Shown here in pieces: positions 7,844 through 9,318 of a DNA stretch of 64,000 nucleotides. Position numbers and translations under genes: made by a program. Location of the stretch: NCBI RefSeq assembly GCF_036346295.1, contig NZ_CP107819.1:2790001-2854000 (forward strand), in the 5' to 3' direction. The notes below the pieces were generated by a model. The model ran no database searches. It saw only the letters and a list, made by a program, of their open reading frames with translations, and was not told the DNA's origin. The number at the start of each line of letters is the position of its first letter. Position 1 is the stretch's first letter. The stretch comes from Streptomyces sp. NBC_00536 (GTDB lineage: Bacteria; Actinomycetota; Actinomycetes; Streptomycetales; Streptomycetaceae).

Positions 7844-8590
7844 ATGACGGGGAAGCGGGCGTGGGGGATGTGCACGGGCGTGGTCGGGGTGGGGGTGTTG
7901 GCGGCGGTGTTGGTGGGGTGTGACACGCCGCCGGCGCCGGAGCCGGTGGGCGGGGCGACCGTTCGGCCGAGCCGGGAGGCGGTGGGCGGGCCGGATGGTC
8001 GGCCGAGCCGGGAGGCGGAGGGTGGGCCGGGTGGTCGGGCCGCCGCGGAGGGGGGCGGGCCGAGTGGGCGGGCGGGTGCGGGCGGGCCCAGTGGACGGGC
8101 TGCGCCTGAGGGGGGTTGGCCCGGTGGGCGGGGTGCGTCGGGTGAGGTGTGTTCCGGGGGTGGGGTGCGGCTCAGTGAGGAGCAGGAGGACGCGGCGATG
8201 GGGCTGCGGGCCGGGGGGCTGCGGCTGGTCAACTGCGGGACGCAGGCCTACCGGCTGGACGGCTACCCCGAGGTACGGGTGCTCGACGCGGATGCGCGGC
8301 CGGTGGCGCGGGTGGCGGTGGTGCACGGCTCGGGCGGGATCAGCACGGGCGTGCCCGGCATGGACCGACCCCCGGAGCCGGTGGTCCTGATGCCGGGTGA
8401 GAGCGCGAGTTTCCCGCTGCTGTGGCGGAACACGGTCACGGACGGGGCCGCGGTCGACGGCCGTTACGTCGAGGTGGTGCCGCGCCCGGGGGACGCGGCG
8501 GTGCGGTTGGAGCTCGTCCACTCCCTTGACCTCGGGACGACCGGGAAGCTCGGCATCGGCCCGTGGCAGCCCGCGAGGACGGCACCGTGA
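7844..8590 (+). CDS. DUF4232 lipoprotein
   Basis: A 248-residue secreted lipoprotein. The lipobox is LVGC (Cys26) after a hydrophobic signal. About 75 residues of glycine/arginine/proline-rich repeats (GGPxGRPSREA units) form a likely disordered linker. The C-terminal domain begins near [20 protein letters not shown] and contains [20 protein letters not shown], typical of DUF4232 proteins, which are exported actinobacterial proteins of unknown function. Its stop overlaps the GTG of the P-loop ATPase gene (GTGA at 8587-8590). Confidence 0.8.
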
Positions 8591-9292
8591 TCGTCTGGCT
8601 CAACGGCCCCTTCGGCGGCGGCAAGACGCAGACCGCGCACGAGCTGCTGCGGCGGCTGCCCGGCAGTGTGGTGTGCGATCCCGAGCACATCGGCTTCGGG
8701 CTGCACCGCGCGCGGCCGCCCGCGCTGCGCGGGGACTTCCAGGACCTCCCGGCCTGGCGCCAGGGCGTGTTCGAGGTGCTGGACCTGGCCGCCGCGCGAC
8801 ACCCGGGCCCGGGGGTGGTGCTGGTCCCGATGACTGTCACCGAGCCGCGCTACTTCGCCGAGACGGTCGGGCGGCTGCGCGAACGGAGCCACGACGTACG
8901 GCACTTCGCCCTGCTGGCCGAGCGTGCGACCGTACTGCGGCGGGTCCGCGAGCGCGGTCTGGGCCGCGGCCTCAAGCGCGAGAGCTTCGCCGTCGCGCGC
9001 CTCGACGGGGCCCTGGGTCCTGTCGTCACATTGCCGTCGTCGCCCGAAGGGCGGCCCCGCGGCGTCTGGCGGCGAGAGTGCGTGCCAGACGCCGCGGGGC
9101 AGACGGGAATGTGACGACAGGACCCAGCCGCCCTGCGCGCACCGGAGTTCGCGGAGCACCTGTGGACGGACCGGCTGTCCGTGTCCGGGGGCGCGGACCG
9201 GGTCGCCGCAAGCGCGGGCCTGTCGCTGAACCCGGACACGGACGGCCCGCTGCGCGGACGGCTGCGGCGTGCGCTGGTCGGCGTACGCAACA

Positions 9293-9318
<26 letters not shown>
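8587..9318 (+). pseudogene. P-loop ATPase gene (tunicamycin-resistance-protein-like) interrupted by a miniature element
   Basis: GTG at 8587 overlaps the lipoprotein stop. The N-terminal part has a Walker A motif (GPFGGGKT) and resembles small actinobacterial P-loop ATPases annotated as TmrB-like tunicamycin resistance proteins. At 9015-9125 a 111-bp inverted-repeat element is inserted after Leu-Asp-Gly-Ala, bringing an in-frame TGA at 9112-9114. Because 111 is divisible by three, the original frame resumes exactly: [19 protein letters not shown] to a stop at 9316-9318. Without the element the protein would be about 206 residues. The truncated product keeps the nucleotide-binding half but lacks the C-terminal lid region, so it is probably inactive. 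Confidence 0.85.
9015..9125. mobile_element. 111-bp miniature inverted-repeat transposable element (MITE)
   Basis: The element begins GGGTCCTGTCGTCACATT and ends with its exact reverse complement. The inverted repeat continues to about 24 bp with one mismatch (next block CCGTC). Inside is a second palindrome, CCCCGCGGCGTCTGGC against GCCAGACGCCGCGGGG, with a 13-base loop, so the whole forms a two-tier hairpin. It sits exactly between CT and AG of a CTAG tetranucleotide, with no duplicated target visible. It codes for no protein and must rely on a transposase elsewhere. The sharp ends and the precise disruption of a gene make it an insertion rather than a terminator. Confidence 0.88.

Follow-up and report, generated by a model that had tools for sequence, protein, structure and literature searches.

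The questions raised by this locus are what the 111-bp hairpin lying inside a P-loop ATPase gene is, into which bases it was inserted, and how it came to be flanked by TG on one side and CA on the other, which are reverse complements and not the direct target duplication that is the standard sign of transposition. The window referred to below is the whole 64-kb stretch of DNA that was analysed, and an earlier description of it, made by a model from the letters alone, is referred to as the sequence-only reading.

Structure of the element and of the interrupted gene

The hairpin was confirmed as 111 bp long, with terminal arms GGGTCCTGTCGTCACATT that pair exactly over 18 bases and with one mismatch over 24, and the second, internal palindrome reported previously was found to have exact arms of 17 nt (Table 1). 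When the flanking CT and AG are included, the arms reach 26 nt (9013-9038 against 9102-9127, 96% match). Folding of positions 9013-9127 as single-stranded DNA gave -66.1 kcal/mol against a mean of -26.2 for shuffled sequences (z -14; none of 200 shuffles was as good). The element is short, is bounded by terminal inverted repeats (109-bp core, 24-nt arms, one mismatch) and carries no transposase gene.

The damage to the gene was correctly located by the sequence-only reading in an in-frame TGA: the frame opened at the mechanically assigned GTG ends there, and beyond the element it is open up to the next TGA (Table 1). A net insertion of 111 bp preserves the frame, as had also been stated, and most likely the element broke the P-loop gene by means of this stop codon, situated in its right arm. 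Matches to the left part of the gene are present in 338 of 392 Streptomyces genomes (E <= 0.001), many of them over short stretches only.

Table 1. Coordinates of the element, the interrupted gene and the plasmid insertion sequence compared with it
Feature	Position	Strand	Details
5' part of interrupted P-loop gene (AAA_33)	8563..9014	+	PF13671, 33.5 bits against cut-off 27; GTG 8563 is a mechanical start
Left flanking dinucleotide TG	9014..9015	+	Matches the CTG codon of orthologues (CTG 47/51, CTC 4/51)
Left terminal inverted repeat	9015..9038	+	24 nt, one mismatch
Element as first drawn	9015..9125	.	111 bp, equal to the net insertion (111 in 14/18 aligned orthologous loci, 110 in 4/18)
MITE core, GG...CC	9016..9124	.	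109 bp; ends set from the 166 de-duplicated copies of the family
Inner hairpin	9054..9100	.	Exact 17-nt arms, 9054-9070 and 9084-9100
Right terminal inverted repeat	9102..9125	-	Inverted-repeat comparison
In-frame TGA truncating the gene	9112..9114	+	ORF reading; inside the right arm of the element
Right flanking dinucleotide CA	9125..9126	+	Reverse complement of TG
3' part of P-loop gene	9126..9318	+	Frame open to TGA 9316-9318
IS5-family element of plasmid pCMU01 (L346)	1504-2346 (numbering of L346)		Core 843 bp; end match, CTA and TAG flanks

A family dispersed through Streptomyces

The 18-base end was found with at most two mismatches in 121 of 392 Streptomyces genomes, with the reversed pattern, used as a control, giving 0 to 2 per strand among the matches listed. 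In S. albiflavescens (G212) the exact 13-base end occurs 62 and 61 times on the two strands. A scan for family stretches returned at least 120, and the 80 matches listed lie in Streptomyces records, except for Actinobacteria bacterium OK074. Copies were gathered by their end pattern and are therefore not a random sample; 221 raw copies were reduced to 167 by removing those with flank identity of at least 80%, and to 166 by dropping L321, an orthologue of L158, and copies lying no more than 40 bases from the end of a locus were left out of the de-duplicated set. These 166 de-duplicated insertions at unrelated sites, together with the empty orthologous sites described below, bear out the earlier view of the element as a MITE with further copies in other genomes: it is an ordinary MITE and a member of a large Streptomyces family.

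Within its own genome (9.15 Mb) the window element is the sole full copy, accompanied by a lone stretch at C1:532683 that resembles the right end of the family. Some relatives of L158 (among L299, L319 and L325) carry at the orthologous position what appear to be remnants, 47 and 43 bp long, of a partly deleted element.

The empty site

One orthologous locus per genome was read, by means of a motif at the insertion site, and all 51 loci are contiguous there, without the hairpin. Where both flanks could be aligned to the junction (18 loci, 17 genomes), the net insertion was 111 in 14 loci and 110 in 4. The four bases at the site read CTGG in 45 orthologues, CTCG in three, and CTGA, CTGC and CTCA in one each. 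An empty site was found in the orthologues as expected by the sequence-only reading, but the CTAG it had placed there, between CT and AG as boundaries of the element, occurs in 0 of the 51; comparison across the family gives instead the 109-bp core with TG and CA as flanks. In the window as a whole the tetranucleotide CTAG is found 6 times, against 639 for CTGG, and the 13-residue peptide across the rejoined site is identical with either CTG or CTA.

For the window copy the most likely insertion site is C-TG-G, the CTG leucine codon of the P-loop gene, and CTGG would have been the target in this lineage. Seen against the rest of the family, one of the two flanking dinucleotides would represent the target, and the second would be the reverse complement of the first. 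Counting against this, the left flank of the orthologues is at most 84% identical to that of the window copy, so an unseen change of CTG to CTA before insertion is possible. A terminal dinucleotide carried by the element itself, which requires a net length of the core plus four bases, was ruled out by the net length of the core plus two.

Flanks across the family

The flanking dinucleotides of the 166 copies are TA on both sides (TA/TA) in 80, reverse complements in 18, direct repeats in four, other palindromes in two, TA on one side in 50 and other combinations in 12. The reverse-complement copies, hereafter inverted copies, are of the kinds TG..CA, CA..TG and GA..TC and include the window copy; in it and the 17 others the flanking dinucleotides extend the hairpin into the flanks. 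Under simple two-base duplication, copies flanked by bases other than TA should carry direct repeats. In 20,000 partner shuffles, 5.4 reverse-complement pairs were expected (maximum 14) against the 18 observed, whereas the four direct pairs are at chance (5.2 expected). Leaving out S. albiflavescens (125 copies) gave 18 against 6.3 (maximum 16) and 4 against 6.1, respectively. When copies are scored by their departures from TA/TA, 17 fall into the two reverse-complement double states and 5 into the remaining four double-transition states. Among the first 117 copies the bases on the left and right were strongly associated at positions -1 and -2. The association was borderline (p 0.06) at -3, there was none from -4 to -7, and a weak one (p 0.04) was seen at -8. 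The excess of reverse-complement flanks is statistically firm; the mechanism proposed for it below is one that we infer.

Of the 18 inverted copies, 12 have a TA/TA or one-sided copy as their nearest element and 3 have another inverted copy, so that the reverse-complement flank is not simply inherited. Mismatches between the arms within the outer 12 bases were seen in 3 of 18 inverted copies against 44 of 80 TA/TA copies (21 of 44 without S. albiflavescens; p 0.025), and over 22 bases the difference was not significant (p 0.29). The smaller number of outer-arm mismatches is in keeping with copying that ran on into the arms, but may reflect sub-family structure.

Proposed fold-back copying and its alternatives

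The reading that we consider probable is that of a MITE moved in trans by an IS5-family transposase of DUF4096 type, inserted at C-TG-G, with one flank filled in from the opposite flank by way of the hairpin. The usual target would be C-TA-G, giving CTA|GG...CC|TAG. Insertion with a two-base stagger would leave a two-base gap on each strand, and a gap filled on its normal template would become a direct duplicate. Alternatively, the primer end would pair, beginning at the outer C/G, with the opposite flank held near by the folded hairpin, and the bases filled in would then be the complement of that flank, yielding TG..CA or CA..TG from a single CTGG target; both arrangements occur in the family. 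A template switch at the same place during later replication would leave an identical mark, and both the copying by fold-back and its timing are proposals.

Individual empty sites were read for the inverted copies, and the six that were readable, that of the window copy among them, gave CTGG four times and CG twice. In favour of fold-back copying, L480 (TG..CA) has CTGG with exact spacing in one relative with 97/86% identical flanks, and for L161 (CA..TG) five of five relatives read CTGG. The three relatives of L030 (TG..CA) have CTGG one base short, C-AG-A, and a sequence that could not be aligned. Against fold-back copying stand L170 (CA..TG), with CG in one relative (86/93%) while no other relative could be aligned there, and L142 (CA..TG), with CG in one relative (98/98%) in a variable stretch. 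L005, L067, L100, L151 and L158 were looked at and had no readable empty site; at L067, the net inserted length suggested by four relatives is that of the core, which also counts against fold-back copying. Among copies of other kinds, the TA/TA control L461 has CTAG in one relative, with the projected spacing off, L454 (CA..TA) has TA in a relative, L459 (GG..CG) has CG within CCGG in a relative, one base short, L071 (TA..TC) reads TG with ambiguous spacing, and L014 (CG..CG) reads TT, again contrary to fold-back copying. A further point against it is an association that it does not predict, between flank type and position 3 of the terminal inverted repeat: G is present at both ends in 1 of 8 TG..CA copies and in 7 of 9 CA..TG copies (p 0.015), the former tending to C or T and the latter to G.

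It is unlikely, in our estimate, that TA was the sole insertion target, duplicated in the ordinary way, after which one of the two TAs mutated to TG or CA and a template switch in the hairpin copied the change across. The TA at the empty site of L454, the 34 MITE copies with a single transition on one side and the TA/TA flanks of all 22 clear full-length insertion sequence copies described below are in keeping with such a course, which nevertheless needs CTAG before insertion, found in none of the relatives read for inverted copies, and leaves those same 34 one-sided copies uncorrected.

Somewhat less likely still is a 111-bp element, as drawn by the sequence-only reading, whose outermost base varies between A and G and which inserts without duplication in the middle of a palindrome (CT|AG or CC|GG). 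Reverse-complement flanks would then arise without special repair, the CG predicted for CA..TG copies is what was found at L170 and L142, and the CCGG in a relative of L459 also fits. However, CTAG is predicted for TG..CA copies, and what relatives show at L480, at L030 and at the window site is CTGG and in no case CTAG; CCGG is predicted for L161, where CTGG was read throughout; and the nearest element of an inverted copy is often TA/TA. That the structure is a hairpin of the host, either a terminator or a regulatory RNA, fits its very stable fold but has next to no probability, being refuted by its absence from every orthologue read and its presence at many unrelated loci, with mir-8515 as the sole Rfam family matched, at 27-28 bits far below the cut-off of 100.

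The wider proposal, that short IS5-type hairpin transposons repair one end of a fresh insertion from the opposite flank through the folded element, is put forward tentatively, and we lean slightly against it. If it were true, a target that is not palindromic would give a mirrored and not a direct duplication, while at palindromic targets (TA, CG) the copy would resemble an ordinary duplication and be hidden; the direct-repeat test for transposition would overlook such insertions, and the way in which insertions are called would have to change. A bacterial family with reverse-complement flanks would then show its own hairpin serving as repair template during or after insertion.

The probable type of transposase partner

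The family end GGGCCTGTCGTCA matches an IS5-family (DUF4096) insertion sequence on plasmid pCMU01 of Methylorubrum extorquens CM4 (Table 1). When the 30-base end consensus was compared with plasmids, the matches besides Streptomyces records comprised 17 exact bases at the end of this transposase gene, with an E of 5, so that the match proves nothing on its own. The two ends of the pCMU01 element are identical at 17 of 18 positions, the protein is DUF4096 and the ORF is spread over two frames; judged by this layout it would belong to the IS427 group, an assignment made here. An alphaproteobacterial element is in this instance matched to an actinobacterial MITE family.

DUF4096 elements of Streptomyces are placed like the MITE (CTA|GG...CC|TAG), as L353 and, in the own genome, L354 appear to be. 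All 22 full-length copies with clear matching ends are TA/TA (L561-L567, L577-L582, L593-L595, L383-L385, L387, L391 and L398), the remaining rows of the listing being chance or ambiguous pairings that were left out. TA stands on both sides in 22/22 of these full-length copies, as in the TA duplication at CTAG of the IS5/IS427 group, and in 80/166 MITE copies, and the uniformity of the long elements means that they give no test of fold-back copying. The own-genome DUF4096 insertion sequence at G000:C1:25990 (L354) reads CTA|GGCACTGTTTCTCGGATC with TAG at its other end, and its end differs from that of the MITE.

An insertion sequence with the same ends, as called for by the sequence-only reading, was found in part: ends of the same kind are present in Streptomyces DUF4096 elements, the nearest among those read being GGGCCTGTCTGATAAT in G154, but these are similar and not identical, and the exact end was seen only in pCMU01. 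A partner carrying the MITE's end was not found in the own genome. The earlier statement that no transposase lies nearby holds for DUF4096, the sole family looked for there, with 0 of 15 own-genome matches falling in the window. Most likely the family is moved by IS5-family, IS427-like transposases of DUF4096 type.

Other candidate partners were rejected. PF13359 (DDE_Tnp_4) transposases of G212 and G350 had no matching ends among 24 loci, and no exact end was present among the 30 loci listed for DUF4096 elements of eight genomes, including the own genome, or among the 30 listed for those transposases of 377 Streptomyces genomes that most resemble the one of pCMU01. Lone family ends, considered as ends of complete insertion sequences, shared no common inward sequence among 65 entries, many of which repeat paired copies.

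Relation to known elements and to stop codons

CTAG with TA duplication is typical of IS630. With the IS5/IS427 group the family shares placement as CTA|GG...CC|TAG and, by way of the pCMU01 element, the DUF4096 transposase, two overlapping frames and the end sequence; it differs in that the MITE is gene-free with a short core and that some of the copies have reverse-complement flanks in place of direct ones. In Paracoccus, most of the IS5/IS427 entries read measure 832-865 bp, carry direct repeats of 2 bp and have two ORFs that overlap (PMC3281130). Like other bacterial MITEs the element is short, non-coding, bounded by terminal inverted repeats, present in many copies and presumably mobilised in trans; the main text of a MITE review (PMC10969869) does not mention the family and contains no occurrence of Streptomyces, and no published work on the family appeared in the literature listings.

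Spy and other PHIS transposons, which are IS5-related and eukaryotic, have related transposases and unusual target rules, Spy leaving no duplication and NuwaII having C|TNA|G duplications (PMC4482050). The accessible part of that report describes no reverse-complement flanks, in contrast to the Streptomyces MITE, whose net length is the core plus two. Mirrored target duplications are hardly reported in the open-licence literature searched. The flank of a terminal inverted repeat element of Zymoseptoria tritici is reported as inversed at the opposite end, a likeness limited, in the text available, to a single fungal insert with neither family statistics nor empty sites (PMC7174668).

Of 181 family ends flanked by CTA, 75 form the TAG stop of an open, coding-like frame, with 9 and 5 such frames in the other phases and none at 94. 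The TAG stop is rebuilt by the first G of the element, so that members of the family can sit harmlessly at stop codons. The copy in the window does not belong with these and breaks its gene; examples of family loci with a CTA flank are L007, L018, L073, L089 and L200.
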